From assembly GCA_030141605.1 (NCBI GenBank), contig JAQGDQ010000094.1, positions 590,429-654,428 on the forward strand: a DNA stretch of 64,000 bases, in the 5' to 3' direction. Shown here piece by piece: positions 24,628-64,000 of the stretch. A model generated the notes under the pieces. The model saw only the letters and a list, made by a program, of their open reading frames with translations, was not told where the DNA came from and did not search any database. Positions within the stretch are counted from its first letter, which is position 1, and each line of letters starts with the position of its first letter. This DNA is from Tubiluchus corallicola. Its lineage: Eukaryota > Priapulida > Priapulimorpha > Priapulimorphida > Tubiluchidae. Made by a program: the position numbers and the translations under genes.

Positions 24628-25590
24628 AACTACCGTAAAACGGGGTGAGTTCGCCACTTTTTAAGGGTATTTTTTTACATTTCCTGCCTTAGCAAGAGAA
24701 TTAGCCAACCGATTTTCTTAGTTCAAGCTTTATATTGCCCTTCGAATAAAACACTATCGTGGGGTGAATTCGCCGCTAACAATTTAACACTGTTTAATGC
24801 CATTCTAGGCAGCTGAAGTTAACTGGTTGTGATTGGCTGGTTGGGGGTGAGTTCGCCACCCTATGAAAAAATTATAAAAAATGTCTAGTTTTAGTTTTCA
24901 AATATAAACTTCTACGTTGGCAAGGAAGGCTTGAACGTCTTGTGCACTGATCTTATCGCGGTCGCCCTTGATGTTGCCAGCCACTCTGAAAACCAGATTG
25001 TTCCTTCGGGCGAATGATTTGACAAAGTCTATTCCAGGGGTGTTTGCCTTGAATCGTCGTTCCTGGATTCCCTTCGCGTCAAGAACACTCTTAATCAGTA
25101 GTCGGAGATCGATGGCAGTCATTGGGAACCCCCACTCAGCGGCCACTGGGAGTGTACTGGCGATTTCGTGCTCCTCGGCGGCGGAGAACACTGGCTGACT
25201 TCCGGTCTTCTGCGGATGACTTCCGGAGAGTTTGTCAGAAAGGTCTTTCTTGGAACTCCGAATTGCCTCGCCGCTGGGCTGATTGTCCTGTTGGTATTCT
25301 TGACGGCATGTAGGGCAGCTTCCAGAGCTTCTGGGGTATAATTTTGGTATCTATGACCCGGTACAGTGGTGCAGGTGCGTGGCATGTTAAGTAGCCAGAA
25401 ATAGTAGACAAATAATATGTAGCGCAGAATGGAATACTTCTAGTGCGAATTGAAAGAAGATAACTGTCGCAAACTGTTTATAATGACGGTGATCATGATA
25501 TCTGTTCATTAAATACTGAACAATAGTTACAGCAAACCTACAATGGCCATTATGTAAGGGGTGGCGAACTCACCCCGTTTTACGGTAGTT
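24628..25590 (-). mobile_element. Nonautonomous pogo/Tigger-type DNA transposon, internally deleted
   Basis: About 963 bp, bounded by a perfect 30-bp terminal inverted repeat (24628-24657 and 25561-25590; core taccgtaaaacggggtgagt). A TA dinucleotide lies at both inner edges (24631-24632, 25586-25587), so the exact end is uncertain: the family duplicates TA, which would put the ends two or three bases inside. The subterminal motif GGGGTGA(G/A)TTCGCC(A/G)C recurs at 24761-24776 and 24844-24859, both in the left arm. The interior encodes only the DNA-binding part of a transposase on the minus strand. The catalytic DDE domain is absent, so movement would need a transposase supplied in trans. Confidence 0.88.
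24898..25385 (-). pseudogene. Truncated, frameshifted pogo-type transposase (psq HTH plus CENP-B HTH)
   Basis: Translation starts at the ATG at 25385. Residues about 10-48 form a helix-turn-helix of the psq type (EALEAALHAV, then ISPAARQFGVPRKTF). After a one-base deletion near 25231 the reading continues in another frame with a CENP-B/Tc5-type HTH. That part holds the AEEHEIAS stretch, the GFPMTAIDLR stretch and the PGIDFVKSFARRNNL helix, and it ends at 24898. In intact relatives these two domains bind the terminal repeats in the nucleus and are followed by a DDE nuclease of about 200-250 residues, which is missing here. The product, if any, would be a non-catalytic DNA binder. The frameshift makes even that unlikely. 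Confidence 0.85.
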
Positions 25591-26537: not shown

Positions 26538-28034
26538 ATGGCATTTAATTTTATTCTTGGTAAGCGCCTGGAATCTGTAGCTGAAGGATGCGTTGAACCA
26601 CGGTACGAAAAAGAAAAACGAGAAAAGAGCATGGCAGCCGAGAAAAGGAGAGCAGCACAGGAGTGCCTTTTATTGGAGGAGGATGACAGCAGGGCAGATC
26701 CATCAAAATCCTCGCAGCAGTCAGACACAAACAGACAGAGCAGCGATCTGAACAAGAATGGCGTCATCTGTTCAGATCATCCTAACACACGCATAATGAT
26801 CAACATCAGTGGTTTAAGGTTCGAGACCCGGGTAAAGACGTTACGTCGGTACCCTGATTCTTTGTTGGGTAATCCAGCCAAACGTTGCAAGTACTTCGAC
26901 ACTTTGAGGAACGAGTATTATTTTGACCGACATCGACCTAGCTTTGATGCAATTCTCCATTATTACCAGAGTAAAGGGCGACTGCAGCGACCTGCCAATG
27001 TTCCTATGGACGTATTCATCAGTGAAATCAAATTTTTCCAATTAGGCGAGAAGGTGCTTGAGCAATACTTGGAAGGAGAAGGCATCGTGAAGGAGAAACC
27101 AAGAGCTTTACCAAAAAACCCCACTTTGAGGACAATCTGGAAATTGTTTGAGCACCCAGATGCCGGATGGCCATCACGTATTGTGGCAGTTATATCAATA
27201 TCAGTCATAGTGTTATCTGTGATCACATTCTGTGTGGAAACGTTACCAGAATTTTCTCAAAATAAAACTGTTTTGTTTCAAAATGCCACAAGAGATGAGA
27301 TTGGGGCCTTTCTTTTTAGCGATCCTTTCTTTGTCATTGAGACATTGTGTGTGTGCTGGTTTACATTTGAGTTAATCATGCGTTTTGTGTCGTCGCCAAA
27401 TAAATTTAAGTTCTGGAAAAGTTTTATGAATATTATAGATTTGACTGCCATCGTGCCATACTTCATAGGTCTATCAGTGACATACATCAACAAGTCTGGA
27501 GATATGGGATCGATGAGCTTAGCTGTACTCAGGGTTCTTCGTCTAGTCAGGGTGTTTAGAATATTTAAACTGTCACGACATTACAAAGGTTTGCAAGTCA
27601 TTGGTCAAACTTTACGAGCAAGTATTCCAGAATTAGGATTACTTACTTTCTTTCTCATCATTGGCATGATTCTTTTTGCTAGTGCTGTCTACTTTGCCGA
27701 ACTCGACAAAAGTGACTCTCACTTCACTAGTATTCCAGCCGCATTTTGGTGGGTGGTTGTCACCATGACCACAGTTGGATATGGTGACATGTTTCCACAA
27801 ACAGGTTGGGGAAAGTTGGTGGGATCTCTCTGTGTGATATCCGGTGTTCTGACAATAGCACTTCCTGTGCCTATCATTGTGTCAAATTTTGATTATTATT
27901 ACCACCGTCATTGTGACACTGAAGCTTATACGACAGAAGAGGAGGATCCTCAAGCTGATGGCGATATAGGTACCAGAATAGATTTGGAAGCAGCTGGTAG
28001 CAAAAATGATGATTACGATGAAACACATTGCTGA
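26538..28034 (+). CDS. Voltage-gated potassium channel, Kv1/Shaker type, single exon
   Basis: Encodes one 498-residue subunit of a tetrameric plasma-membrane K+ channel that opens on depolarisation. The ATG at 26538 is chosen; the frame is open a little further but has only a TTG there, and the ATG at 26631 is an alternative. Residues ~86-180 are the T1 tetramerisation domain ([22 protein letters not shown]). S1-S6 follow from ~213. S4 carries the regular arginine ladder ([18 protein letters not shown], ~330-347). The pore has the filter TMTTVGYGD (~409-417), and S6 has the PVP gate motif (443-445). T1 and S1-S6 are closest to the Shaker subfamily. The N-terminus (hydrophobic start, then basic and charged residues) could act as an inactivation ball. 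The C-terminus ends ETHC, reminiscent of the PDZ-binding ETDV of Kv1 relatives. The frame is unbroken, as in the intronless Kv1 genes of many animals. Confidence 0.95.
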
Positions 28035-36542: not shown

Positions 36543-37199
36543 TTAATAAAAATGGGGGAAACGGCCACGTTCTGCCCTAGTCGCACATTTGCTTGATTTG
36601 TTATCGACATTCAAAAGAAATCTGCATAATTTAATATTGGCATCTTCGCTTGGCGCACTATCAAATTTAGTTTGAATAAGCGGAGAATTGGTTTTAATTT
36701 TAGTAATGCTAGGTCCCCATACACAAGAGCCATACAGCATGATAGGTACTACAGTATGTTCAAATAATTTGATAATAGTAAGTGGATTTGAGATGTACTT
36801 TTTCATGCAGTAAAAAGCTTTTAGGCATTTGTCTTTTAGTTTGGTGCAGCTTTGCCTGAAAGCACCGACCACTAAGTATTCAGAGGATTGGACTATTTTC
36901 AGCTTATCAGACCCATAGGTAAAGTTCAAGTCTTTTAGACTTCTACTTCTGCCTGCTTTGTTAAAAACAATAATTTCTGTCTTTTTAGTGTTAACTTCTA
37001 GAGCCCATTCGCTACAATAATTATTAAGCTTATTTAAGGCATTGTTGCAATCCTGACTGGGAACAAGAAAGTAAGACATATCATCTGCATAGAGAAGACA
37101 TTTGGTTTCAAAATTGCCTAGACTGACGGGATCGCATTCATTAGATGTGAAAACTGTTGGTAAGTCATTGATATACAAGGAAAAGAGAACTGAGCTCAA
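36543..37199 (-). pseudogene. Reverse transcriptase fragment (YADD block and thumb)
   Basis: The 218-codon frame starts in SSVLFSLYINDLP, which precedes the catalytic core in non-LTR reverse transcriptases. It contains LLYADDMSYFLV with the catalytic Asp pair. It continues with WALEVNTKKTEIIVF (motif D) and the thumb region (LFEHTVVPIMLYGSCVWG). It originally copied element RNA at a nicked chromosomal target. The conserved PQG-type motif upstream is disrupted, and flanking stops make it a pseudogene. Confidence 0.88.
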
Positions 37200-37510
37200 C
37201 GTACATCCTTGCTTAACACCTAAGGAGGATGCTATATCTATATACCGCCAGCGATTTTAACGGAGTAATTAGCTTTAGAGTAAATATTTTGCAGAATCTT
37301 AAGAAAATAACCACCTATATTATTTTATAGCAATTTATAGTACAATCCAATTCGCCAAACTGCGTCAAAGGCTTTGCGCAAATCAACGAAATAACAACAA
37401 AGTTTATGATTTGGTTTCAAAAATTTATCAATAAGTGTTTTTAATGTAAACATATGGTCACTGGTACGACAGCCTTTTTTAAATCCTATTTAAAATGCAG
37501 AATGTTATTA

Positions 37511-38329: not shown

Positions 38330-39252
38330 CAGCCGCTTCAATCTCGTTCTCGTTTACATTATAATTAAAGCAATGTAGTATAGTGCATTAAGGCCTTTTT
38401 ATAAATAATCTCTGGATTGTGGCACGTCAAGCTTCGCTAGCGGTTTCTTTACTTGCGTAAACTACATGAAAGTGCGCACATCATTGTCTATTGTTGAGCA
38501 GATGAAACCACAAAATACTATAATTTGTTAAAATCAAACCTGTTGTAGTTTGCCATTTTTTATGAAAGATGAAGTGTAGCCAACCTAAAAGGAGAGAAAG
38601 TAGGTAAATTAGTAAAATTATGGTATTGTGTGCTTTCATTCGCATACATTACCCATCAACTATAGTGAATGATGAAAGCAATTTACCTGTAGCATAAGAC
38701 TTCACCGCCACACTCAACAAAAATTAGAACAACGTCCATACTAACTGAACACAACAGAGTAGCGCCACCTATCAATACTGGCCTTCATTCACTTTGTTAA
38801 ACGAATGCGATTCGCAATGTCTACACAATTATATTACTAGAATTTAATAACCAAGATTTAATAGACAAAATAAGCAACAGAGGAAATGAATTAAAGCAAC
38901 AAGGTTTCTCTCAAAAGCAAGTTTTGAACAACGTGTACGTTGATGACACATCACATCATGCCAGTGATTCCACGTCAGCAGCGCCGCGTCACGTTTTTGC
39001 AGCCATGTGTAAATTTTTACAGACATGTACGAATCTTGATAAGGCAGTTGTAAAGCTGCATGAGTGCATTTCTATTTACGTACTTACGCACCTCATATCT
39101 ATTTATACATTATTATATGAGGTGCATCTAGTTACGTAGGCCTATTCTATTAGTCAAAATAATGCTTAGATGCGCAGTCAAGATTCGTGTTTTCTAAGCT
39201 GAAAGAGTTAGACGGAATTTGCCAACTTTATAAGGCCTTGCTAATTTTTGTA
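38330..39252. other. Upstream flank of the BTB gene
   Basis: No supported gene. Overlapping short frames on both strands (38844-39139) have no recognised domain. A pair of atgaggtgcat / tgcgcacctcat-type words near 39085-39127 forms an inverted repeat. Confidence 0.4.
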
Positions 39253-40590
39253 ATGGCCTGTTCATCGTCCAAAGACTACTCCATAGATATGGCGGCAATA
39301 TGGAAAAGAGCAAACTGGTCTGAAAGATTGTCCAGCCTGTTTGATAGTGGTACGTTGCAAGACGTTGAGTTCATCGTAGGTGAAAAACGCATCACAATAA
39401 GAGCAAATAAACTCGTCTTGTCGTTGGTAAGTCGAGTATTTTTTACAATGTTTTATGGATCACTACCAGAGGTCACTAACACACCTATTGAAGTTCCAGA
39501 TATCAGAGTGAAAGTGTTCAACATTTTTCTCGAATTTGTTTATACCGACAGGATTCCCATAACTGATTGTAGTGTGTTATGTCATGATGGGGTTCCTTCA
39601 GCATTTGAACTAATTTATGTGGCCAAGAAATATGACGTGAGAAGGTTGGAAAGCATTGCGGCTAAGTACATTATGTCACATCTGACAGTTGATAATGTGT
39701 GTGATGTCATTAGAGAAAACTATTTGTACGAAAACCGGGACGTGCACGAACAGTGCTATCAACTAATTGATTTGTACCCGCTGGATGTGTTTACGTCTAA
39801 GAGTTTCACAAAGCTAGCCTACACAGAATTGCTGGAAATAGTTAAGAAAATAAACAACAAAATTTCTGAATTATCAATTTATGAATCAGTTGTTGGATGG
39901 GCGCGGGCTCAATGCGCCCGGAAAACACTGGCGACTTCTACTGGTAACATTCGCAACGAAATGAGCGACGTACTGTACGAAATTCGTTTTCCCTTGATGG
40001 ATCTGCAAGAGTTTGCGGATGGACCCGCTCAGTCCGGCATATTAACCGATAGTGAAGTAGCTAACATTTTCTTAAACAGGCATGGATCATTAAACAAAGT
40101 ACAGCTGATTTTTCCCGGAGAAAATAGGTGCGATTTTATGCTAAACTCACAAGACTTTAGGGGTAGGCCTACGCTTGTCTTTAGAGTGCCAGTACAGCAC
40201 ATTGATGGACTTCAACGCGGAAAAGGAAAGTGGTTTTCCTCTAAACCATGTTATCCTATTGCGGGAGTGTCCTGGGCGCTAGAACTTAGGAAGTGTGGCC
40301 CACTTACCTGTAATTCTGAGACTGAAAAAGGCCAAAGTTGTTGTTTTCATTTCCGGTTTGAACCCCATTGTGCAGCAGAAGAACGAAGAACTAGAACATT
40401 GTTCAGGGAATCCAGGATAGTGCTGGTGAATCTTGATCCACAAAAAAGCATCGAAAAAAAGCTGGCTGAGGACAAAACACCAGCTATTTGGTGGGAAGAC
40501 AACTTCATTTCGTCACGTGACTTGCTGACATTTGAAAGTGGCTTTATTATTGCTGACGTGATTACAGTTTACTTTATACCATGTGTTTAA
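39253..40590 (+). CDS. BTB-BACK protein with C-terminal MATH/TRAF-like domain
   Basis: A 445-residue single-exon protein from the ATG at 39253 (the frame is open a little further but starts there with GTG). Residues ~25-145 form a BTB/POZ domain: LQDVEFIVGEKRITIRANKL, then FFTMFYGSLPE and IEVPDI. The BACK region follows, ending in FPLMDLQEFADGPAQSGILT, a signature of the BTBD1/2/3/6/17 group. The last ~140 residues (VFRVPVQHID, then GVSWALELR, FRESRIVLVN, WWEDNFISSRDLL) resemble a MATH/TRAF-like beta-sandwich more than the PHR domain of BTBD1/2/3/6. The order BTB-BACK-TRAF-like recalls BTBD17. Family members often act as cullin-3 substrate adaptors; that role here is inference. An AATAAA at 40681-40686 lies 91 bases past the stop. 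Confidence 0.9.
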   Translation: MACSSSKDYSIDMAAIWKRANWSERLSSLFDSGTLQDVEFIVGEKRITIRANKLVLSLVSRVFFTMFYGSLPEVTNTPIEVPDIRVKVFNIFLEFVYTDRIPITDCSVLCHDGVPSAFELIYVAKKYDVRRLESIAAKYIMSHLTVDNVCDVIRENYLYENRDVHEQCYQLIDLYPLDVFTSKSFTKLAYTELLEIVKKINNKISELSIYESVVGWARAQCARKTLATSTGNIRNEMSDVLYEIRFPLMDLQEFADGPAQSGILTDSEVANIFLNRHGSLNKVQLIFPGENRCDFMLNSQDFRGRPTLVFRVPVQHIDGLQRGKGKWFSSKPCYPIAGVSWALELRKCGPLTCNSETEKGQSCCFHFRFEPHCAAEERRTRTLFRESRIVLVNLDPQKSIEKKLAEDKTPAIWWEDNFISSRDLLTFESGFIIADVITVYFIPCV

Positions 40591-40686: not shown

Positions 40687-41053
40687 GATTAACCGCATGG
40701 CAGCCATTCTAGTGCATGAGACAAAATTTTCATGTTGCGTATTTGTGCAAAATCGTAATGGCTAAAATCTGAAAATCTGAATGTAATGTTTTATTTTTAT
40801 AATGCAACTCAGTTGTGCTGTTTTATAGCCTATTAACTGTTACCGCTGCTGCTGCTGTTGTTGTTACTAAGACTGATAGAATTTTTTTATAACGACGAAT
40901 AAAAACGAACAGTCTTAAATTTTATTATTCTTATTAATACTTAGTCATTCTTTATCTAATTTAAAATTTCAACTTGCTGATTTATGTAGAAATGTAGCGA
41001 GATTAGATTAATTAAATTATGCTCTCAAAACAGAAAGTCCAATGGAAGTGGAA

Positions 41054-41156
41054 GTGTTTTATTAACTAACACTGATTGATTATCTCTGTAAAGTTTTTAT
41101 CGGTGATTATCAATGTATTTTAATGGCAAATAAAGATTATTATATATACATATATA
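41054..41156 (+). mobile_element. Solo 3' end of the 60.4-64 kb retrotransposon family
   Basis: About 97 bp match, with few differences, the reverse complement of 60393-60478, the 3' UTR of the large minus-strand element. Shared words are attaactaacactgattgat, aagtttttatc and aatggcaaataaagattat. Like that element it ends in a TA-rich microsatellite (tatatatacatatata). It is an extremely 5'-truncated insertion and the only other copy of this 3' tip that I found in the window. Confidence 0.88.
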
Positions 41157-41810: not shown

Positions 41811-42995
41811 ATGATACCAAGGAAAGTTCATGTCAGAGATATTGATGCAGCATTACACACTGGTTTAAAAAATCAGCAATCAGTTGATAAAGTCAAGAGA
41901 AATGCAAAAAGGTGGTTGCATCCGAAGGTATACACCATCCAGGAAATAGAAAATAAAAGTACAGTGAAACCTGGCGATAACAACTACTATCGTGATTGTT
42001 CAGTAACAAGCAATGAGTTGTATTACAAATTGCACCCACTTTTGAATTCTGCAAGGATTTTCGGTCTCTTTCACCTTCCGAAACATCGGCCCGAAAATGC
42101 TTCTCTGCTTGCCTCTTTTTCTGGAGCCACCTGGTGGTCGCTCGTGACACTGCTGTGTGTTACAGCAATATGTGCAAAGTCATTGAAATCTGACACTGGC
42201 AAAGCTGACCTGACGACAGCCACCGGCATTGCACAGTCGTTTGTCTTGTTCTTGGAGGTAATTCTGGTTTTGGTTAGATGGTTCACATTTGTTGCCGGAT
42301 TCAAAATGGCGAATGTTTTCTCAGAATTTGAGAAACAACTTCCTCGTTATATCAATCACAGTAAAGTTACTAACATCAAATCACTTACACAAACTCTCAG
42401 AGAAAATCGGCTTTCATGGGGATTAACCTTGATGGGCTGGGCGGTGATTATAAGTACTTTTTTGTATGCAACAATAAACAAGGTTTTCGAGAACCTGAAT
42501 TCAACTATAACTCTACGTTTGGTATTTATAAATACGGTTTATGTTATCTATGACAAGTTTCAGTTGGCAACTGTCATTTTTGCTGCATACATCGTCGTCT
42601 CGTTGTGCAAAATATTAAATTCTAAATTTAGTTTTCAACACGATGGCCTACGATTGGATACTGACGAAAAGGTGAATAATTTCTTGGACAAGCAAAGAGG
42701 ATTCATTCTTCTAATTGAAGTTGTGGATGAGACAATATCACCAATGCTTTTGATGATTTGTCTCGGAAGTTTCATGGTGATCGTTGTTCAAATTTATCTT
42801 TACAGCCATAATTATCACTCCGGTATTCCACCAGGTTATTTACAGGAATTTGTCCACGTGTTTTCTACTCTACAAAGTTTCTCATTCCTACTGATTCTTA
42901 TCAGCTGTACAGCTCTGCACGAAAAAGTCATGCAAGTTGAAAGAATTTTACATTCTATAAAACGAAGTCAATTGGGAGAAATGGCCAGATATGAG
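41811..42995 (+). CDS. Gr-like receptor large exon 1 (TM1-TM6)
   Basis: Encodes 395 residues of a gustatory-receptor-like seven-transmembrane ion channel subunit, lacking only the last membrane segment. The ATG at 41811 is the first in frame after a GTG. The intracellular N-tail (~74 residues) leads to YYKLHPLLNSARIFGLFHLP, which is conserved in all five copies. TM1-TM6 follow, including the TTATGIAQSFVLFLEV helix, YDKFQLATVIFAAY in TM4 and MICLGSFMVIVVQIYLYS in TM5. It ends ARYE followed by a GTAAAT donor in phase 0. Its own 3' exons are not found before the next copy at 44129, so it probably splices to 50166-50255 and 50884-51045. Insect relatives are chemosensory cation channels; a cnidarian homologue has a developmental role. 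Ligand and tissue are unknown. Confidence 0.85.
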
Positions 42996-44128
42996 GTAAA
43001 TACATGAAATAATTCTCAGACCTGGCACTCTTCATATGCTATGTAGATTTTTTTTATTTCAGGAAATATAAAGAATAAAAGCAAGCATGTAGTGATGGAA
43101 AGTTAAACAGCTTCTAAGAAAATAAAACAAATTAGAACTGTTTGGAAATTTGCAGCAAGAGTTAGTTGTACAAGTGTACAAGCCACTAGAGCTCTAACAA
43201 TAAGAAAACAAAGGTAACACCTTGCCAAAACACACTCGATGGCTTGAAACACTTTATACGTGAGTGAAGTGCAACAGATAAAAGAAAAATATATATTTTA
43301 CATTAACTGTTGTTCAAAACAATTCATGTGCAGGTATTATTGCCTAAAAGGATGATGTTCTTCTATTCTTAGCCCTTAGCAGTTCCAGTGTTGGAAATTT
43401 TTTTCAAGTTTCTTTCCAGGTCTTTGCATCCGAAAACTGATTACACGTTCAAACTAATAATTAGTTGTCTTTAATTAAGTTACTGCACACTTGATAATTA
43501 ATAATAAAACCATTGCCTCCATACTCAACCAAGATCAGTCTCTGAATCATGTGAGATGCAATTTAAAAACTTTAAGATAGAGTTAATTGCTTACAACAGA
43601 TGTAGAGACGATTGCTGCTTTAATCTGGTACTTTAAGTTAAAAAAGTAAGCGTCTTATATCCAACGCTTATCACATCTTGTTGATTCCTAATATTCCAAT
43701 GCCACCTTCCTGGTGGGTCAATAACTAGATATAGTTGCTGTGCTGCAAATATTAGCAGTGTGACCTGCTAATTTTATTCTATCTGTGAATTATTCCATCC
43801 ATTACATCACTGAGGCACTTATTGCAGTATGCTATTATTTAACAATAAACGCCAACAATAAATGTGTGCAAGGCTGTTATGCATTTGTCTAGCAAATGGT
43901 AAATAGATTGAAATTAAAAGCATTTGTGTTTACACTACTTTGTTCTGCACAACATTAGCAAGCAACAGAAAAACCACCTTATTTATAGCAAAAACAATTC
44001 AGGACTTTTAGATCACGTTCAGAATTATTGCAATCGAGAAGTACTCCTCGTATGCTAGTTCAAGAAAAGGAAATAAATATTACTCAAAGTTAAACAAGAC
44101 AGGTGTTTTCGATTTTTCTACAAATGAT
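42996..44128. other. Intron or spacer between large Gr-like exons 1 and 2
   Basis: Read in all forward frames for a linker exon or a TM7 exon with a T(Y/F)-hydrophobic-QF motif behind a splice acceptor. None was seen. Confidence 0.5.
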
Positions 44129-45241
44129 ATGAAGAAATCTAAAGACGTTTCAAAGCAAGTTGTGAGTACCATAAGTTGCATAGCTTGGAAATCATGTGAT
44201 GACGATCCTTCAATGCCCATCAACCGTGAAATGGAAGAAAAGAATTTCACAGAAATTTTGATGATGAATGATATGTATAAAAGCTTAAAACCTTTGCTGC
44301 AATCTGCCAAAGTTTTTGGATTATTTCACGTACCAAATCAATACCAGGAGAGTTTTCGCATGCTGTCATATTTTTCTAGAAGCACCACTTGGTCGTTCAT
44401 TGTTTTTCTTGGTGTAGTGTCAATTTGCATAAAGTCTTTGGTTGCAGATGTACAACATGCTAACCTTACTACAGCCAGTGGTATTGCACAATCATTCGTC
44501 TTACTGTTGGAAGTAATTCTCACACTTGTGAGATTTTTTGCATTCATTGTTGGGTTCAAGATGAGAAAGGTGTTCATCGAGTTTGACAAGATGGCATGCA
44601 AGAGGAAATCATATTTTGCTAAATCTGATTCAACTACAACCAAAATTTCTGTAACTTTTATATCCTATTTCCTGGCAGTAATTGGATGGGTTACAATGAT
44701 TGTGACATTTGTTTATGCAGCAATTCATAAAGTAAAAGTTCATATCGGCAACGACAATAATACTATGGGCAACATAATTATATCAGCAGCATATCTCATT
44801 TACGACAAATTTCAACTCGCAGTGGTAATATTTCCTGCCTATATCACTACTTGTCTGTGTATCACCTTGATACAAAAATTTAAAAATGCAAAACTTGGTG
44901 AAACCACAGACCAGAATCTTCACGTCTTCTTAGAAAAGCAAACCAAATTCATTCATTTAATCAAAGTTATTGATGAGACAATGTCACCAATGCTTTTGAT
45001 GATTTGTTTCGGAAGCTTCATAGTGGTCGTTGTTCAAATTTATCTTTACAGCCATAATTATCACTGTGACATTCCACCAGGTTATCTACAGGAATTTGTC
45101 CACGTGTTTTCTACTCTGCAAAGTTTTTCATTCCTACTGATTCTTATCAGCTGCACAGCACTTCACGAAAAAGTCATGCAAGCTGAAAAAATTTTACATT
45201 CTATAAAGCGAAGTCAATTGGGAGAAATGGCCAGATATGAG
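44129..45241 (+). CDS. Gr-like receptor large exon 2 (TM1-TM6)
   Basis: Encodes 371 residues from the ATG at 44129. It has the same architecture as its neighbour: a ~53-residue N-tail, YKSLKPLLQSAKVFGLFHVP, TM2 with TTASGIAQSFVLLLEVILT, YDKFQLAVVIFPAY in TM4, and TM5-TM6 ending KRSQLGEMARYE. The phase-0 donor GTAATT starts at 45242. The last ~100 residues are almost identical to those of the 41811 exon, including a 39-base identical stretch in TM5, whereas the first two thirds are much more diverged. No 3' exons were found before 47541; splicing to the exons at 50166 and 50884 is the likely completion. If read through the donor, the protein would end after nine more residues without TM7. Confidence 0.85.
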
Positions 45242-46895
45242 GTAATTACATTAAATAGTATCTTATGCTTATAAGGGACAGTTGTAGATGACGGAATGCT
45301 CAAAAAATCAAATCTCAAGTTCTGTTTTTGCTTGCTAATGGCATTCTAACAAAATATTATAAAGCACCTTTGCAAATACAGTTGCAATTATAAGACCATA
45401 ATAAAATAATTAACTGATCAAATGAATTAATAATTTACGTGTGAATGTTAAAATGTTACAAACTACAACAAAATTGCAAATGCAATGTTGCAAAGGCTAT
45501 AAAGGCTACAAAGGTAGTTTTACAGTCTATTGTTCTGCTGGATTCTGCATATAAACAGATTGAATCACTTGAGCATGTATGTATAGGCTAACAAATTTAA
45601 ATGTAAGCTTCATCCAAGGCTTGAAGGCCTGAAAGGTGGCTGCACATGACAGTATATCAGTTTATCCCCAACAATTATAGTTCTTTGTATTTTAGCCAGT
45701 GCAGTTCATTACACAAGTTGGGGTAATCCAGGTATGAAACTGTCTACACCATTGAGACTTTGCCAGTGGTGTAAATCGTGCCATCAGCTGCAAGTGAAAA
45801 CAGAGGCAATAAGCACATTTACCCGTGACATCACGTAGTGTCACCTTTAAACGCACAAGATTCTTGTACAGATTTTGTAACTTAAAATTAACATTTATTA
45901 TCACGTAAAGTAAAATTTTGCATTTTAGCACACTATATTTCTTTTATAAATTACTCCTAGAGTCACGTCTGAGGACTTCACGTATTTGAAATTGAAAAAT
46001 TACAAAATCGTGTTTATCTTATTTGCAGTTAACTGTGCAAGGTCTGTGAAGACCTTTTTATTGCTAATTTGAAAGAATATGCTTTCGCTCATTGAATCAT
46101 AAATGTTGACAATGCGTTTGTTTGCCGCTCCTCATATTTTTGCTATGGACGTCTCCGAATGCCTAATGTTTGCTTATAAACTCTGCTTTTAACAGAGGCT
46201 TGTTATCTCACTAGTTTTTACCAAAAATTGTTTCCTGTCAACTACAGTTTTACTTGCTTCAAGAAGGTCGACCTATCACTACCAAGTTATTAATAAAAAA
46301 AATTTCTCGCCCTGTTTTTAAACCTGTTTTTTACTGTGGGAATGCCTCAGCATATTACCATAATTCAACGCTGTCAGTTCTTTAGAACTTCTGTCTTTCA
46401 GATTTTATGACATTTCTGACTTAAAAAATGACGAAGAACATGGACATTCAATCGCACACACACATTGTGCATTGCGCCAAAAAAAATTAAAGGGGCAAAT
46501 GCTTTTTTTAATGATTTATTGGCTCTTTGTGTTGCCAACTGATCTATGTTCATCCAGCAGAGGATTAGTGTTGCCTAGTTCAGCTTTAACTCATCCACCA
46601 TAGAAGCCGAGAATAATCGATTAATACGTTCACAAGACTTTGAGTTTTTTCTTAGTTATAGTTTTAGCTGGTAATGAAATACTATTTTTTGAGACATGTC
46701 GAGGACAATCGTGTGAAAGTAACTTCTACAAAGCTCACAACTATTTAAGTATAGTCTTTTTTAATCTGAGTTCAGGGACTATTAGCGATCACCCTGACGA
46801 TTATAAAATTAGTCATGGTAATATGAACACATAATTAATTAGTTAATTAAATTTCGATACCAAACTTGCAAGACAGGCGTGTAAAATATTAGAAA
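45242..46895. other. Intron or spacer between large Gr-like exons 2 and 3
   Basis: No exon with the TM7 motif and no other gene supported. Confidence 0.45.
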
Positions 46896-46963
46896 TACTG
46901 TCTGTATTTGAACCACTGCCCTTCTGCTTACAAGGCAGATGCTTCAGATCAATAAGCTACTTT
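46896..46963 (-). repeat. tRNA-like SINE head
   Basis: On the minus strand a box A-like tagcttattgatctgaagc is followed by a TGT-anticodon-like loop (ccttgtaagcagaagg) and a box B-like ggttcaaatac, with tRNA spacing. The acceptor stem does not pair, so this is best read as a tRNA-derived SINE fragment inside the receptor cluster. Confidence 0.5.
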
Positions 46964-47540
46964 ATTACTCAGCGAAAAGTTTTAACATTTCCTGTCTATA
47001 AACTTTGGTATCAAAATTTAGTTATATGTGTTTTTGTAATATCTTTCATAACAATCTTGACATTACGATTATAATAATTAAAAGTGGTCTTGTTTACTCA
47101 AAACAAAGGCACAGTTAATAAACTTGGTACAACCAAAACAGGTTTAACTGCGAAGGTATAATAGTAGAAAGTACAATTTTAGTGTTTTTCATTCATGCAA
47201 TAATAATTTCTAAAATGAATGCCTTTTTATAATGAATGCTCATTATATAAGTCAGTTTCTTTTTTGACTTCGATCATGGTGTATAGCGTAGGAATTCTAA
47301 AGGAGAGAAGAAATCGCTGCAATTATGGGCAAACTGACTATTTACCCAATTATAAATGTATCAAAAGAAAATGTTCTCCAATGTTTCTTTGTTTGGCATG
47401 CAGCACTCAACCACATTTCCTTTGGCTATTGTGATCTGTTAATGCATCAGCTTGAGGCTTCTACGAAGGAACCTAGGTCACCAGAGTGCTTCAAACACTT
47501 ATACTTGAACGAAGTGATGTTTTTGTTAAATTGTTTCATA

Positions 47541-48677
47541 ATGGGCACCAGAATACCTTCTGCTCCAACAAATACTTTTAAGAACTCAGTAATAAAAAGT
47601 CCAACGAAATGGACACCAATTCAGACAATGGTTGGTGATGGAAAGCTTGCAAATAACGTGATTTCAGAGTCTGGCGACTTCATATTGTTGGACACAGTGA
47701 GTTTTTATAAAAGCTTGCATCCACTTCTAACGTTAGCTAAAGTATTTGGCCTATTTCACATTCCAAGTAGAAAAAACACGCAAAGGAGATTCCAAGCTCT
47801 TCTATGTGGCAGTACGACGTGGTCATTAGCAATGGCTGTTGGAGTCACAATAGTGTGTACCTACGACTTAATTACGGACTTGAGAGCTGCAGACTTGATT
47901 ACTCCAGCTGGTATAGCACAATCATTTGTACTTTTTCTCGAGGTTGTGAATACTATCATTAGATGGTTTGCTTTTGTTTCAGCTTTTAAAGTGACCAAGT
48001 TGTTTTCCAAGTTTGAGTGTACTACAGAAAACAGTGCCGAACGGACAAAACTACTTAGGCTCAAATTGTTTAAACGAGAGCTAAAAGACAGCACTGTCAG
48101 CTGGACATTAGCCTTTGTAGGATGGATTGCGATGAGCTGCACATTTTTAAACGCTTTAGTAGAGAAAGTGAAATATATCTACGAAGATACATCCATTAGG
48201 AGTTGCGTTTTAAATATCGTATTTTTATTCTACGATAAATTACAACTTTCCACGATCATGTTTCCAGCCTTTATTATAGTTGGTGTTTGTTGCACTCTGC
48301 TCTCCTACTTTGAAACTCAAAAGGAACCCCCGAAAGTCAATACCGATAAAAATGTGTTAAGTTATCTGAAGGGACAGTCAGCAATTATAGAAGTTATTGA
48401 AGTCATCGATGCAGCTATATCACCCTCGCTTTTCATGATTTGTTTCGTGAGTTTCATGGTAACTGGATTGCAAGTATATCTCTACAGTCACAACTATCAC
48501 TTTGGTGTACCAAAAGGTTTTATGCAAGAGTTTATATTCGTCTATTCTACTCTGCAAACTGTCTCGTTCTTATTAATTCTGATCGGCTGCACAGCTGTGC
48601 ATGAAAAGATTTTGCAAGCGGAAAGAGCGTTACGCAAAGTTGAACTTTATCAACTGGGTGACGTGGCACGCTATGAG
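47541..48677 (+). CDS. Gr-like receptor large exon 3 (TM1-TM6)
   Basis: Encodes 379 residues if the ATG at 47541 is used. The frame is open to an ATG at 47325, which would add 72 residues, but 47541 gives an N-tail (about 57 residues) like the other copies. It carries SFYKSLHPLLTLAKVFGLFH, a TM2 with TPAGIAQSFVLFLEVVNT, YDKLQLSTIMFPAF in TM4, and TM5-TM6 ending YQLGDVARYE. The phase-0 donor GTATAA lies at 48678. This is the large exon nearest to the recognisable linker and TM7 exons (50166-50255, 50884-51045). Joined in frame they give a complete seven-TM protein of 462 residues. The intervening intron contains a 300-bp triplet microsatellite. Confidence 0.88.
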
Positions 48678-48745
48678 GTATAATATTGGGCCTATACCAA
48701 ATTAATTCTTTTTTTAAGGCATGTCGCCTCTGAAGTGAGGAAAAT

Positions 48746-49056
<311 letters not shown>

Positions 49057-50165
49057 AATTCTTTATTGCTATAAAATTTAGTAGTTTACTACCCATTCAA
49101 AAATTGACAGCATAACCAGTGTTTCCACTGCTGTGAGTATTAGTGTCAGGATAAAATAAAATTATGAGTAAAAACATGAGTGAAGCTATGATCATTACAT
49201 CGATTGCACAAAAGTCTACATTCATTTGACACGGTTCAGCGAGTACTTAACACAATTTACAATATTTGCAAGTAATAGTTTTGTCTAAGATATTAAAATT
49301 GTGTAAATATGAAATTGCATGAGTGGTTTTGATTTTTTTTGAGTTGGTGACACTACAAGTTGAATGTTGATAATAATAAAAAGGTGTGATTTGATATTTT
49401 GTATTAGGTCTTTTTGATGGCTAGCATGTTTTTAGTTCATTTTTGAATCCTTTTAGCGTCACTGCAGATTTTACATTAAATAGCTGAATACTCTTGCTTT
49501 TGTGTTAGTAACGGAAACAACACAGTAAAATTAAATAAAGCAAAAATAAAACAAAGCAAGAATAAAGCTCAGCGAAACAAAGCATAGACATAAAATATTA
49601 CAGCTTCTGAAACACACTGAGACTTGTAAAATCTGCATGTTACGATCAAAATAGAGTTTTGAAAATAATTTGTGTTGCCACTACTCAATGTTTAACGCCT
49701 TCATGCCGATTTTTATTTAGAATAATAGGTAAACAAGCAGAATGAAGCGAAGTATAAAATACACGACAATGTTTAGAGCGGCAAAATAATGTAAAATGGT
49801 CAGAAAAAAGAAAAAAATGCGACATGAAACAATAGTTATAACGAGGCAGCAGTACAATAATCATTATCGTTTATTAATATTATGACGACCAAATACTTAG
49901 CGCCAGTTTATCGATGAACATCACGTTTGTCAAACTGCTTGCCTTTGAATATTAATAAAATTAGGATGCAAATGCAGCTAAGAATTCAAGTTTATTGCAG
50001 CAAAATGTTTATGTTCACGGGTAAAGTCATTGGGTGAACGTAATTATCCGATGAGATTGAAAATGACGATGATGGTGGTGATAATGATTGTGATTGTTAC
50101 TCTGGTAATGACGAAAATGATAGTGATGGTGATAAATGAGAGCCATAATTGAATTGCTTTTGCAG
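49057..50165. other. Rest of the intron before the linker exon
   Basis: AT-rich, no supported gene. A GAT-rich cryptic repeat lies at about 50061-50134, followed by a good pyrimidine tract and acceptor (gctttttgcag, ending 50165). Confidence 0.5.
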
Positions 50166-50255
50166 GTACTTATTCATCTCCAACAACTATCATCAAGATC
50201 TATTGGCCTCACAATCTGGAAATTCTACGTCATCAATCGAAACTTTGCTTTTATC
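50166..50255 (+). CDS. Gr-like linker exon (before TM7), probably shared
   Basis: Thirty codons (VLIHLQQLSSRSIGLTIW, then KFYVINRNFAFI) flanked by a strong acceptor (ttgcag) and a consensus donor (GTGAGT at 50256), both in phase 0. In insect Gr proteins the equivalent segment between TM6 and TM7 has the pattern LQL....ITAxGFFxLDRxLL and sits in its own position relative to phase-0 introns near the C-terminus. The exon joins in frame to the ARYE ends of all five large exons. It is the only such exon I could find in the window. Confidence 0.82.
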
Positions 50256-50370
50256 GTGAGTTCAGTTTGTTGCTATTTTGGAAATATAGCTTCGCCCAGT
50301 TTAATTTTTAAAGTGGAGATTAGATTTTTGATCTTTTCACTGATGAACTCAATAAACAGTTTTGTAACGT

Positions 50371-50452
50371 GAGGCGAGTTGAGTAGCGGAGTGGTCATGG
50401 CATGCGTTTGTCAGTGAATGGCTCGTAAGTGCCCGGGTTTGATGCTCCCTGA
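50371..50452 (+). repeat. tRNA-like SINE head inside the last Gr-like intron
   Basis: Box A-like tagcggagtgg (50384-50394) and box B-like ggtttgatgct (50436-50446) lie 41 bases apart, as in tRNA genes. The 5' and 3' ends do not form an acceptor stem, favouring a tRNA-derived SINE over a tRNA gene. Confidence 0.55.
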
Positions 50453-50883
50453 GGGAAATTTCATTCGCCATGCTAATTTCTTGTTGCGCATATTATACCC
50501 ATCTTCCGTACATATACATATATATGAATGTGATTAAAACAGCTCTACCAGCTCAGTGGTTCATCTTAATGGCTATTCATGATAACGAGTTTGGCATTGA
50601 TCTCCCCAAAAAACAGTGGACCTATTATTAAGAGCTGGATTTTGGGTTGCAATACATTTGCAATGTATTTTATAAAGATTAAAAATAAAAACGTGCTTTA
50701 CCTAAAGCACCTTCATCACAAAACAAATTCATATTTTGCTTTGAGTTCTTGTTGTCAAATAAACTCTTGAATAAAAGTTACCAAGCTAGTTTGTTACTAT
50801 TGCATGATAAATTTATAACTGTTATAACGTTTATAACTGTTGTTGAGTTGCTTAGTTTAACAATAAATGTTGTTGTTTTGCAG

Positions 50884-51045
50884 ATTGTCAGTGGTATCTG
50901 CACGTTTTTCATCGTGATAGTACAATTTCATCAGACAATTATTGGAAAGCAACAGACAAACGTGACACTCCTTATGGACGCCTTTGCCAATGAAGCTTGT
51001 CATATCTGCAGACGATTTCTCAACAACCTTAGTGATCCTGATTAG
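50884..51045 (+). CDS. Gr-like terminal exon with TM7 motif, probably shared
   Basis: Preceded by an acceptor (gttgttttgcag, ending 50883) in phase 0. The exon encodes IVSGICTFFIVIVQFHQ and then a ~36-residue tail ending NLSDPD before the TAG at 51043-51045. TFFIVIVQF is the Gr/Or-superfamily signature T(Y/F)-five hydrophobic-QF of TM7, which lines the pore in the tetrameric insect channels. The intron falls just before the motif, the same place and phase as the ancestral last intron of insect Gr genes. The tail beyond QF is longer than the few residues usual in insects. Confidence 0.88.
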   Translation: MVSGICTFFIVIVQFHQTIIGKQQTNVTLLMDAFANEACHICRRFLNNLSDPD

Positions 51046-52800: not shown

Positions 52801-53901
52801 ATGAAAGCACATCATAACACATGGACCATCGGACTGACTGGTTCACTTAAAGTCACGAAGGAGCACGTTAAAACACTATCTCCTAGAAAACTCAATACAG
52901 GTTCCCATAATGATTCCAACTGCCAATTTTACCAGAAATTACGTCCACTATTGATTTTTGCCACAATTTTTGGCTTGTTTCACATGCCTAACAGAAAGAC
53001 GCAGAAACGGTTTGGGTTGGTGGTATTGTCCTACAGTACCATGTGGTCTTTGACTATTCAGATTTTCGTCACAGTTCCAACTATATGGTCCCTTATGCGT
53101 GATACCAGTAAAATTGATCTCACAGCAGCAGAAGGAATTGCCCGGTTATTTGTCATGTTTATGGAAGTAACACTCACATGTATAAGATGGTTGGTATTCT
53201 TTGCTGGATTTAAACTGGTAGATGTCTTAGCAGAATGCAGAGAAGTCAGCAAAATTCAATATCCAAATATGCTGGTTACAGTCATCTCTGGGAAACAGAA
53301 GTACTTGGAGAAAGGAATATCATGGATATTTGCCACGTTAGGAGGGATCATAATTGTCTTTTCGATTATTACAGAATCTCACACTTTGTGGAAGCGGTTT
53401 AAAAGCGGAGAAGAAGAAATTTCATTTCTGCCGATTCTGATTATGTATTTGGTTTCTGACAAGCTGCTGTTGGCAACTGTGATGTTTCCTGCTTATATTA
53501 TAACTTGCTTTTCCTACGTGCTAATATCCCATCAAAGATCATTTCAGAAAACAGAAGAAAATCTTTCAGCTGAAGAAGTCATGTTGTTTTTGAAAAGACA
53601 TTCAAAGTACATTCGCGTTGTCAAGGTCATAGACAACGCTATATCTTCTACACTGCTGATGATCTGTCTGGCAAGTTTTATGGTAGTTGTAGTACAAATT
53701 TATCTTTTCAGTCACAATTTCTATGCTAACATTTCCCACGGATATCTGCAACAATATTTGTATGTCTACTCTACCATGCAGTCTGTGTCATTTCTGCTGA
53801 TTCTTGTTAGCTGTACAGCAGTACATGAAAGCGTTATGGAGGCTGAAAATAAGTTACATGCGTTGAACAAAGAGAGCCTGGGGGAGACAGCACGTTATGA
53901 G
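52801..53901 (+). CDS. Gr-like receptor large exon 4 (TM1-TM6)
   Basis: Encodes 367 residues from the ATG at 52801. The N-tail is ~40 residues, followed by FYQKLRPLLIFATIFGLFHM. TM2 has TAAEGIARLFVMFMEVTLTC. TM4 has the variant SDKLLLATVMFPAY (Ser for the usual Tyr), and TM5-TM6 end KESLGETARYE. The phase-0 donor GTAAAT starts at 53902. It belongs with the 55920 copy in a subgroup distinct from the first three (FSHNFY instead of YSHNYH after TM5). It lies downstream of the only recognised linker and TM7 exons, so it needs its own or a later 3' set. None is recognisable before 55920. Confidence 0.85.
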
Positions 53902-55919: not shown

Positions 55920-57047
55920 ATGGAGAAGTCTCGTGATGCAAGGTCCGTTGACTTGGACAATAATCCTAAACATCTAAAGCAAGAAGAGGAGATAAACACT
56001 GAGTCACCTCCCACAAGTGGCAATAACTTCAATGTTATTTTTGAAACTGGTTTGTATCAGCAACTAAGGCCACTGTTGACAAGCGCAATGTTTTTTGGTC
56101 TCTTTCATATTCCTAACTGCAGAAAGAAAAATGCACTATTTGGACTTGTATTGTTGTGCTCTCGTAGCACCATTTGGTCATTAATTAATCTGATCTTTGT
56201 CACTTCAACAACTGTGCTCTTGTTTCTGATTGATTATGAGGATATTGAGACAGTGATACTCACAACGCCAACAGGAATTGCAAAAATGTTTGTCATTTTA
56301 ATGCAGGCAACATTATCTTTGATAAGATGGCTGATCTTCTTTGCTGGTCTCAGAATGGCACACATTATGGAAAAATCATATGAGGTTCAAGAAGCAGAAA
56401 AAATCTATTCTTCTCTTATTCCTACAAAAAAGAACAAGAAGAAAAATTTCGAGAAAAGAATGGTATGGAGCCTGACTGTATTTGGATGGATTGTTATTTT
56501 TTACTCGTCTGTCAAGGAAGTTTTTGTTTTCTGTGAGATATTTGTGGAAGATCTGGAAAAGGGAGCCATTTTTGACATTGTGGCGATAATCATACTTTTC
56601 CTGTATGACAAATTTCTGTTGGCAACCGTCATGTTTCCCGCATTTACCATAACGAGTTTATCTTTTATATTAAAGACTAATCAAAATTTGGCACTGAAAA
56701 TGGAAAATCTCTCAGATGAAGAGATTATGTTATTTTTGAAAAGGCAAACGAAGTATGTTCATCTGGTCAAGGCCATAGACAACGTCATATCTCCGACATT
56801 GTTGATGATCTGTCTGGCAAGTTTTATGGTAGTTGTGGTACAAATTTATCTTTTCAGTCACAATTTCTATTCTGGCATTCCCCCAGGTCATCTGCAGCAA
56901 TATTTGTATGTCTACTCTACCATGCAGTCTGTATCATTTCTGATGATTCTGGTTAGCTGTACAGCAGTACATGAAAGCGTTATGGAGGCTGAAACAAAGT
57001 TACATGAGTTGAATAAAGAAAGTCTGGGGGACACAGTACGTTATGAA
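55920..57047 (+). CDS. Gr-like receptor large exon 5 (TM1-TM6)
   Basis: Encodes 376 residues from the ATG at 55920. It is organised like the other copies: LYQQLRPLLTSAMFFGLFHI after a ~42-residue N-tail, a TM2 with TPTGIAKMFVILMQATLS, YDKFLLATVMFPAF in TM4, and TM5-TM6 ending KESLGDTVRYE. The donor GTAAGT at 57048 is the best consensus of the five, in phase 0. The last ~100 residues nearly match copy 4, with two DNA runs of over 30 identical bases, while the rest is diverged. No linker or TM7 exon was recognised between here and the retrotransposon at 60.4 kb. It may lie beyond the window, or the copy may be incomplete. Confidence 0.85.
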
Positions 57048-60367: not shown

Positions 60368-60392
60368 TTATATATATATATATATATATAAT
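60368..60392. repeat. (TA)n tail of the retrotransposon
   Basis: A TA dinucleotide run directly after the 3' UTR of the minus-strand element. The related solo 3' end at 41054-41156 also ends in a TA-rich run. Confidence 0.85.
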
Positions 60393-60592
60393 AATCTTTA
60401 TTTGCCATTAAAAACATTGATAATCACTGATAAAAACTTTATAGAGATAATCAATCAGTGTTAGTTAATAAAAACTTACACTGCTGAAGGCAAATGCGTC
60501 AGTGCAATCTAAACTACTGTGCAGTAATGACGAATAAAAGCAAACATATTTACAACTATACACAAAAAAATATAAAAAAAACTATGATTTAA

Positions 60593-61289: not shown

Positions 61290-62885
61290 TTAGTTTTTTT
61301 TGATTACAGCATTATCTATTGTCAAAGTGGTTGATGATGCATCATTAGTATTTAATGAGGGTGACAGTATCATGAATTCTGTTTTGTCATTATTCATTTT
61401 TAGCTTGTAATGACTAAATGCCATATTTATATTTTTTATATCTTCTTCTAAATAATTTTTTGCAGTTTGGACATTTTCATGGGCTATGTAGATTGTAGTG
61501 TCATCAGCGTATTGCGTTATTTGTGAGTGTTTTAATACACTGGATATGTTGTTTATATATAGGCAAAATAATAACGGACCTAGTAGTGTTCCTTGCGGTA
61601 TACCTCTGTTTAACGTGGCCCAGTCAGAAAAGTTGGTTGTATCTAACTTTACTCGTTGTTGTCTATCTTTGAGATAATTTTGTATCAGTTTTAACGATAT
61701 CGAATCTAATCCGATTTGTTTTAAATTATCGTAAAGTAGTTCGTGATTAATGCTATCGAAAGCTTTACTTAAATCCAAAAATGCTGCTAAAATGTATTGC
61801 TTGTTGTCTAAACTATGTCTCCAATTTTCTGTTGTGTGTATTAGGGCGTCAATGGTTGAATGATGTTTACGGAAGCCAAACTGATGTTTTGATAAAAGTT
61901 CATGTTTATTTACATATGAATTTATCTGATCATAAATTACCCTTTCCCAAACTTTGCCGAAACAATGGATTACGGAAATTGGGCGATAATTCATGGGATC
62001 ACATTTTGGATCTTTTTTATGGATTGGAGTCACATTTGCCATTTTACATACCGTTGGAAATTTGCCTCTCATAATTATCTGATTAGCAATGTAAGTCATA
62101 TGCGGGGCTATTACAGATGCGCTATCTTTTAGAATTTTGATAGGAATATCTGATGGTCCACTCCCTTTGTTGGAACTTAGGTTATTTAATATGTCGTTAA
62201 TTTCTCCTACTGTGACGCTTTTGAATGAGAATACTGTGTTAGACGATTTGTTTTTTAATTTATTAATTATATTATTGCTAATATGAGAAGCCACTCCCTT
62301 AAAATTTCCAAGATTCAGGAATATTGCATTTAACGCGTTGGCAATATCTTTGGGTTTTGTAATAACAGTGTTGTTGATCTTAATTTCGTCAACACGCGTT
62401 AGTTTGTTACGGCATTTATTTATTACATTGTTAATAATTTTCCATTTTTCTTTGGTATTTGTTGCGTTTTTACATTGTTGTTGTATATGTTTATTTTTCA
62501 AGCATTTATTAAGATTATTAAATTGATTTCTCTTTTTTTTATAATTGTTATGATTGTTTTTAGTTTTGTTCTTTTCCCATATATTATACATTCTGTTTTT
62601 CGCTATTCTTAGTTTGCCAAGTTCAGGTGTTGTCCAGGTACTTTCGTTATTGAGTTTGCTTTGTTGTGGGATTTGCTTTACGTTTTTATATGGTGCATGT
62701 ACATTAAGGCAATATTCGACATTATATGTCAGAATATTAACTTGTGTATCTATTTTATCAGTCATATATATGGAGGTCCAGTTCATTTTTGCTAAGTCGA
62801 TTAAGTATGAATGTTTGTTGTATTGGGCGTAGTCTCTCATTAAATGCCAGACTGAATTTTGGTTATTATTATGCTGTGGGGTCAT
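61290..62885 (-). CDS. Reverse transcriptase of the non-LTR retrotransposon
   Basis: A 531-codon frame from an ATG at 62885. After an Asn/Lys-rich linker (to ~residue 200) come the RT motifs. They are NVTPIHKKDPKCDPMNYRPI (fingers), HQFGFRKHHSTIDALI, FLDLSKAFDSINHELL (motif A, first catalytic Asp), RGIPQGTLLGPLLFCLYINN (motif B), ITQYADDTTIYIA (motif C, YADD) and LKMNNDKTEFMIL (motif D). All catalytic residues are present. The enzyme copies the element RNA into DNA at a nicked chromosomal site. The frame is closed prematurely by one extra base in an A8 run (61294-61301). With seven A the reading continues directly into the C-terminal region. Confidence 0.93.
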   Translation of the reverse strand: MTPQHNNNQNSVWHLMRDYAQYNKHSYLIDLAKMNWTSIYMTDKIDTQVNILTYNVEYCLNVHAPYKNVKQIPQQSKLNNESTWTTPELGKLRIAKNRMYNIWEKNKTKNNHNNYKKKRNQFNNLNKCLKNKHIQQQCKNATNTKEKWKIINNVINKCRNKLTRVDEIKINNTVITKPKDIANALNAIFLNLGNFKGVASHISNNIINKLKNKSSNTVFSFKSVTVGEINDILNNLSSNKGSGPSDIPIKILKDSASVIAPHMTYIANQIIMRGKFPTVCKMANVTPIHKKDPKCDPMNYRPISVIHCFGKVWERVIYDQINSYVNKHELLSKHQFGFRKHHSTIDALIHTTENWRHSLDNKQYILAAFLDLSKAFDSINHELLYDNLKQIGLDSISLKLIQNYLKDRQQRVKLDTTNFSDWATLNRGIPQGTLLGPLLFCLYINNISSVLKHSQITQYADDTTIYIAHENVQTAKNYLEEDIKNINMAFSHYKLKMNNDKTEFMILSPSLNTNDASSTTLTIDNAVIKKN

Positions 62886-63940: not shown

Positions 63941-64000
63941 TTTCAGTTTTAGTATGGATAGTAATGTACGTAGAATAACTAAGACGTAAGCATAGTTACA

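Follow-up and report, generated by a model that had tools for sequence, protein, structure and literature searches.

How can several long exons, each resembling the greater part of a GR-like chemoreceptor, give complete receptors when a single exon for the seventh membrane segment (TM7; helix S7) is found among them? This question is raised by a locus in 64,000 nucleotides (nt) of DNA from Tubiluchus corallicola (the window, in whose coordinates all positions are given). The explanation that probably holds is that three of the long exons, E1 to E3, are alternative first exons of a GR-like locus, joined to one shared set of 3′ exons, a linker exon and the TM7 exon. Two further long exons, E4 and E5, lie beyond that set.

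Exon anatomy and family membership

The exons concerned are as follows.

41811-42995, + strand: E1, putative alternative large first exon, open reading frame (ORF) of 395 amino acids (aa), donor GAG/GTAAAT
44129-45241, + strand: E2, putative alternative large first exon, ORF of 371 aa, donor GAG/GTAATT, fold modelled
47541-48677, + strand: E3, putative alternative large first exon, ORF of 379 aa when read from this ATG (uncertain start), donor GAG/GTATAA
50166-50255, + strand: putative shared linker exon, AG-led open frame of 30 aa, phase 0 on both sides
50884-51045, + strand: putative shared TM7 exon, AG-led, open, phase 0, with TFFIVIVQF and the stop codon
52801-53901, + strand: E4, fourth large exon, ORF of 367 aa, donor GAG/GTAAAT
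55920-57047, + strand: E5, fifth large exon, ORF of 376 aa, donor GAA/GTAAGT

A preliminary description of this DNA had placed E1, E2 and E3 correctly, each being open, of a length that is a multiple of three and ended by RYE before a GT. Its linker and TM7 exons are likewise accurate, both being open, AG-led and in phase 0, with the stop in the TM7 exon. The set of large exons was, however, not complete at three, as E4 and E5, located 3′ of the TM7 exon, are exons of the same kind. All five end in a common alignment column and in the same phase, with LG(E/D)...RYE followed by a GT donor, and their pairwise local identities are 36 to 59%. Loci of the type of Drosophila Gr39a have at least two tandem long exons, each with a start codon, six TMs and a donor that agrees in place and phase with the others; five homologous exons of this form are present here, the helices being modelled for E2. 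When the window was searched by tblastn with the five large exons, those exons being masked, no match was better than E 0.44. Two boundaries are less sharp: the reading frame of E3 is open 5′ as far as 47301, and an in-frame GT at 50265 would make the linker three residues longer.

Profile matches and a modelled fold show the predicted products to be GR-like, that is, of the insect chemoreceptor superfamily. The Pfam profile of this superfamily (OR/GR/GRL) is 7tm_7 (PF08395; gathering score 26.6 bits, profile length 370). When joined to the linker and TM7 exons, E1, E2 and E3 all exceed the gathering score (60.6, 53.5 and 39.5 bits), and the joined matches end at profile position 369 of 370, those of E1 and E2 starting from 1 and that of E3 covering 218-369 only. 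As exons alone, E2 (35.1 bits) and E5 (29.4 bits) pass, and E1, E3 and E4 have no 7tm_7 match, in the case of E1 and E3 at E up to 10; the linker and TM7 exons alone give 21.6 bits to profile positions 326-369, under the cut-off. In one control, a hydrophobic stretch of the window was put on E1 as a decoy tail and gave no 7tm_7 match; in another, E4 joined to the linker and TM7 exons gave a full-length match of 51.5 bits. Six membrane segments had been ascribed to each of three large exons; this is borne out for E2, the exon modelled, in which AlphaFold2 predicts six long helices in agreement with the S1-S6 fold of the superfamily.

The TM7 motif of the superfamily, (T/S)Yhhhhh(Q/K/E)(F/L/M), is matched by TFFIVIVQF at 50902 only if F is allowed for Y, a conservative substitution described as seen in some animal GRLs (PMC7746228). 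In the exon model the motif begins exactly six codons past the intron, a spacing that is a stated feature of it (PMC2680840). Further C-terminal phase-0 introns mark the superfamily, the last two being common to it and three being present in many members; here one further phase-0 intron, 5′ of the linker, was found and no third, and its position is known from this locus alone. Protein relatives at E 0.01 or better were found neither for E2 (1805 candidates) nor for the alignment of the five exons (4967 candidates) among 5.8 billion proteins, in a search that needs shared 5-residue words and whose empty result does not equal absence of relatives. By sequence, neither query matched the PDB at E up to 10. 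The products would be putative ion channels, the superfamily being one of tetrameric ligand-gated cation channels.

A probable shared set of 3′ exons for E1 to E3

Further linker and TM7 exons were sought in the whole window. Candidates were open stretches in phase 0 with a leading AG, on either strand; their ungapped scores were taken against the linker, for candidates of 24-40 aa with a GT end, or against residues 1-30 of the TM7 exon. The two strands yielded 600 and 447 linker candidates and 881 and 823 TM7 candidates. The true linker scores 152 and the true TM7 exon 150. The best others reach 35 and 37, so that none exceeds 37 besides the true exons, and on neither strand of the window was a further exon of either kind found. 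This agrees with the earlier view that neither exon follows E1 or E2 and that one of each, the sole set found in the window, follows E3. As a yardstick of power, the large exons were compared with one another in 30-residue windows: over the last ~110 columns all 81 windows score above 40 in every one of the ten pairs, and further upstream a smaller share does (for example, 27 of 48 windows for E3/E4 and 34 of 89 for E3/E5). Because the yardstick passes there, a second linker or TM7 exon conserved like the adjoining S5-S6 would be detected; a much faster-evolving one might not. Within this power, E1 to E3 have one 3′ set of short exons and none between the long exons, as in loci of the Gr39a type.

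Two looser searches cover the same ground. A scan for a relaxed TM7 motif, for rows with a mean hydropathy above 0.6, gives on the + strand the motif at 50902, the S5 segment within each of E1 to E5 and poor candidates at 22285 and 50654, and on the − strand positions 43215 and 1307. With very loose settings, tblastn with the linker and TM7 exons gives many weak hits besides the true exons among the matches listed; with tighter settings the best match other than the true exons has E 0.52. That E1 and E2 are ordinary tandem genes whose own TM7 exons are too diverged for recognition is quite improbable. GR sequences do diverge fast, and the yardstick rests on the conserved S5-S6, its mid-region windows passing only in part. 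The + strand of either spacer nevertheless holds no relaxed TM7 motif at that hydropathy and no linker or TM7 candidate above 37, the spacer after E1 measures 1133 nt, and the related ORs are described as best conserved at their C-terminus (PMC6175461).

Splice signals were scored as percentiles among the 3954 GT and 3500 AG of the window, with a generic metazoan matrix. The donors of E1 and E2 stand at 99.2 and 98.9, and those of E1, E2, E4 and E5 all fall within 98.9 to 99.2. The linker exon has an acceptor at 98.3 and a donor at 95.4, and the acceptor of the TM7 exon stands at 99.1. Within 600 nt 5′ of the start codon of each large exon the best acceptor scores 0.4 to 2.8, against a median of 3.0 for random 600-nt stretches. 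Because no acceptor stands out there, the large exons fit the role of first exons. E1 and E2 are most simply spliced to the linker of E3, since no TM7 exon of their own is detectable, their frames are intact, their donors are good and their Ka/Ks (nonsynonymous over synonymous substitution) is below 1; the distances from donor to linker are 7170 nt for E1, 4924 nt for E2 and 1488 nt for E3. Transcription would start at E1, E2 or E3, and the donor of that exon would be joined to the linker (50166) and the linker in turn to the TM7 exon (50884), any intervening large exon, without a strong acceptor, being removed as intron. Three receptors would result, which differ in S1 to S6 and have one linker and the pore helix S7 in common. 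The splice junctions and separate promoters of this model are predicted.

Several observations weigh against the shared use of one 3′ set. E3 adjoins the linker most closely and yet has the weakest donor of the five (GTATAA, 91.2 percentile). The gain in Pfam score shows that a GR is completed by these pieces but does not single out the large exon in use, because E4 gains as well. E4 and E5 show that large exons without a TM7 exon in reach exist here, which weakens the need for E1 and E2 to use the one after E3. AATAAA or ATTAAA hexamers are present 3′ of every large exon, so transcripts may terminate early, but hexamers of this sort turn up often in AT-rich DNA. No common motif was found in the 400 nt upstream of the large exons (8-mers in at least four of five, 7-mers in all five), and separate promoters are for this reason only inferred.

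Read-through of any of the five donors, moreover, runs into a stop 1 to 20 codons further on, so that six-helix proteins are possible in principle. That these are real products of some large exons is nevertheless very unlikely. Read-through would add just 3, 10, 1, 14 and 20 residues to E1 to E5, respectively; these tails vary between the copies and look intron-like, and the GT donor is retained in all five. In the insect chemoreceptor superfamily, S7 is the helix that forms the pore.

Alternative first exons on a shared 3′ set thus remain the best-supported reading for E1 to E3. As observations apart, the spacer between E2 and E3 holds a weak tRNA match at 46893-46966 on the − strand (32.5 bits, gathering score 29), perhaps a tRNA-derived repeat, and the intron between E3 and the linker holds a long run of TAA/TAG-type triplets at about 48745-49025 on the + strand.

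Selection and homogenised tracts

In paralog comparison, Ka/Ks is 0.33 for E1/E2 and 0.39 for E4/E5, with Ks about 1 in these two closest pairs. Six further pairs, whose Ks exceeds 2 and is near saturation, give 0.18 to 0.30, and two pairs are not computable; Ka/Ks for E3 comes only via pairs of these last two kinds. Ratios below 1 indicate purifying selection on the long exons, and all five ORFs, of 367 to 395 codons, are intact. In a tree of the five, E4 and E5 group with a bootstrap of 100, and E1/E2 are split from the rest with a bootstrap of 94 in the full alignment and 84 in its first 300 columns. The midpoint by branch lengths falls on the stem of E4/E5 and separates E1-E3 from E4-E5, a reading of the tree with no outgroup.

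In both close pairs the 3′ end of the exon is far more alike than the remainder.

42687-42995, + strand: homogenised tract, last 103 codons of E1; partner, the tract of E2
44933-45241, + strand: homogenised tract, last 103 codons of E2, S5-S6 of the model; partner, the tract of E1
53620-53901, + strand: homogenised tract, last 94 codons of E4; partner, the tract of E5
56766-57047, + strand: homogenised tract, last 94 codons of E5; partner, the tract of E4

The proportion of synonymous differences (pS) between E1 and E2 is 0.19 in the last 103 codons against 0.75 upstream (Fisher test at the best break, 2.7e-15), and that between E4 and E5 is 0.21 in the last 94 codons against 0.67 upstream (1.6e-10). 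When permutation was used to allow for the free choice of break, none of 1000 permuted data sets gave a break as strong as the observed one, in E1/E2 and E4/E5 alike. Six of the ten pairs were covered by the break test: twice the log-likelihood difference (2dLL) is 64.9 for E1/E2 and 42.5 for E4/E5, and in the four other pairs it is weak (2.6 to 5.7). In the model of E2 the tract runs from about residue 269, inside the helix 261-313, to the donor and so comprises most of S5 and all of S6. Within about 20 nt 3′ of the donor, sequence identity between the copies drops off.

Gene conversion where enough similarity remained would account for the tracts, and conversion may have been favoured for fit to the shared S7. 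Selection on synonymous sites was rejected as their cause, since the four other pairs keep a pS of 0.66 to 0.78 3′ of their best break. The end of the tracts at the donor is not claimed as a functional sign, the introns sharing little sequence past it. Recent conversion within E1/E2 and E4/E5 would equalise S5-S6 and concentrate diversity in S1 to S4. Within the tracts Ka/Ks is 0.32 for E1/E2 (13 synonymous and 16 nonsynonymous differences) and 0.29 for E4/E5 (14 and 15), which suggests, on 29 differences each, that constraint continued after homogenisation.

These results bear on the view that only E3 with its linker and TM7 exon works, E1, E2, E4 and E5 being decaying or silent copies from a partial tandem duplication. 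E3 alone has an adjoining TM7 exon, two of the five large exons lie beyond the sole TM7 exon found, and the intron sequence 3′ of the donors is not common to the copies compared, all of which speaks for this view. All five ORFs are nonetheless intact despite large synonymous divergence, Ka/Ks is below 1 both overall and in the recent tracts (with few changes there), and every one of the five retains its donor, with E3 itself having the weakest. Decay is therefore unlikely.

A probable second unit, the host and related systems

Alternative 5′ exons on shared 3′ exons do not extend to E4 and E5 in the same way: as both are located 3′ of the TM7 exon, they cannot be spliced in cis to 50884-51045, and no TM7 exon was found 3′ of either within the window. 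A second unit of like kind, in which E4 and E5 would be first exons and the 3′ exons would lie beyond base 64000, fits them best and is a clear prediction. The other way to complete them would be trans-splicing to the TM7 exon at 50884 within the same gene. Their donors have the same place and phase, and a full-length match to 7tm_7 results when E4 is joined to that exon. It is simpler, however, to place a second 3′ set outside the window, which ends 6.95 kb past E5 with a reverse-strand reverse transcriptase ORF between, and E4 and E5 pair together in the tree; trans-splicing is thus extremely improbable.

The host had been taken for a non-insect animal, which is supported by one gene of the window that groups with Priapulus.

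26538-28034, + strand: Shaker-type Kv gene, intact one-exon frame, in a Priapulus-containing clade

This gene has 6550 relatives at E 1e-10 or better, of which 120 are listed. Among the named matches listed, identity is highest for two proteins of Priapulus caudatus (66% with 90% of the query covered, and 67% with 76% covered), which rank third and sixth by E-value; ahead of them, among the matches listed, are fish and tree shrew entries with 58 to 59% identity and another entry with 75%. In a tree of 22 rows, the window gene groups with a Priapulus tsha2-like protein and one further protein (100/99), then with a second Priapulus paralog on a long row (100/100), away from the remaining 18 rows, among them insects, molluscs, an annelid and deuterostomes; the rows beside the window gene are 21 hand-chosen from the 120 listed matches, with no kinorhynch, nematode or tardigrade among them by name, and the tree concerns one gene. 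By this gene the host is likely to be a priapulid or some other scalidophoran and unlikely to be an insect; a cnidarian host, considered at first, was rejected on the Kv matches and tree. Inside the Kv gene, Rfam K_chan_RES (potassium channel RNA editing signal) matches 27774-27887 with 87.3 bits, which may only reflect conserved coding sequence.

Elsewhere, ORFs with the reverse transcriptase domain RVT_1 of Pfam and a LINE-like look lie at 36543-37256 (−) and 61290-62885 (−), the second between E5 and the end of the window. An open frame with BTB and BACK domains (39163-40590, +) lies just 5′ of E1, and a 110-bp repeat, 94.5% identical and in opposite orientation, flanks the exon array (41047-41156 and 60375-60482). 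A frame of 150 codons at 24898-25350 (−), which by its resemblance we take to be transposase-like, has no Pfam match at 0.01.

In the vertebrate clustered protocadherins and UGT1A, which are unrelated proteins, a tandem series of variable first exons likewise makes use of a single constant set of 3′ exons. The insect examples invoked earlier are right in kind, Gr39a, Gr23a and Gr28b being named as alternatively spliced (PMC2204066). As described there, Drosophila Gr39a has tandem six-TM large exons, any one of which is spliced to common small TM7 exons, with conserved splice sites, omega below 1 and gene conversion among exon copies considered (PMC2204066). It differs in being an insect gene with three shared small exons, against two here, and in having isoforms of reported expression; the likeness is one of described layout, and the present locus is known from genome sequence alone. 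In the cockroach Blattella germanica, Gr60a-m and other GRs likewise splice several long first exons to short final exons used in common, and RNA-seq supports some of the models; there are, however, up to 13 first exons and three shared final exons, and the host is again an insect (PMC6175461). Or15, Or24, Or27 and Or31 of Thermobia domestica have the same layout, accepted from the genome partly without RNA-seq, although these are ORs of an insect with four shared short exons (PMC6080948). The Grs of Daphnia pulex share C-terminal phase-0 introns but are described as separate tandem genes, the word 'alternative' being absent from the main text (PMC2680840).

Among the best-ranked works, covered mostly by titles and the openings of abstracts, no such GR locus in a priapulid or other non-arthropod was met. 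Alternatively spliced GRs are reportedly present in the amphipod Hyalella, which was not confirmed among the matches listed. By sequence criteria, the locus would be of a kind known in insects but in an unexpected lineage, with a probable second unit and paired homogenised tracts. The evidence here favours neither a convergent nor an ancient origin. It is a rather doubtful conjecture that alternative first exons on a shared pore end predate arthropods in the GR family and persist in a priapulid-like lineage as protocadherin-like units set one after another, in which conversion keeps S5-S6 uniform and diversification is left to the helices on the ligand side, while the channel base stays constant.

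If transcripts confirm the predicted junctions, receptors of the GR family would be diversified by swappable first exons in a scalidophoran-like animal, beyond the arthropods, and the choice between a convergent and an ancient origin would become a testable question. The protein would then be split by evolutionary route into a private S1-S4, a pair-homogenised S5-S6 and a locus-shared S7. Such a split would be a natural experiment that separates the helices for ligand choice from those for assembly and gating.

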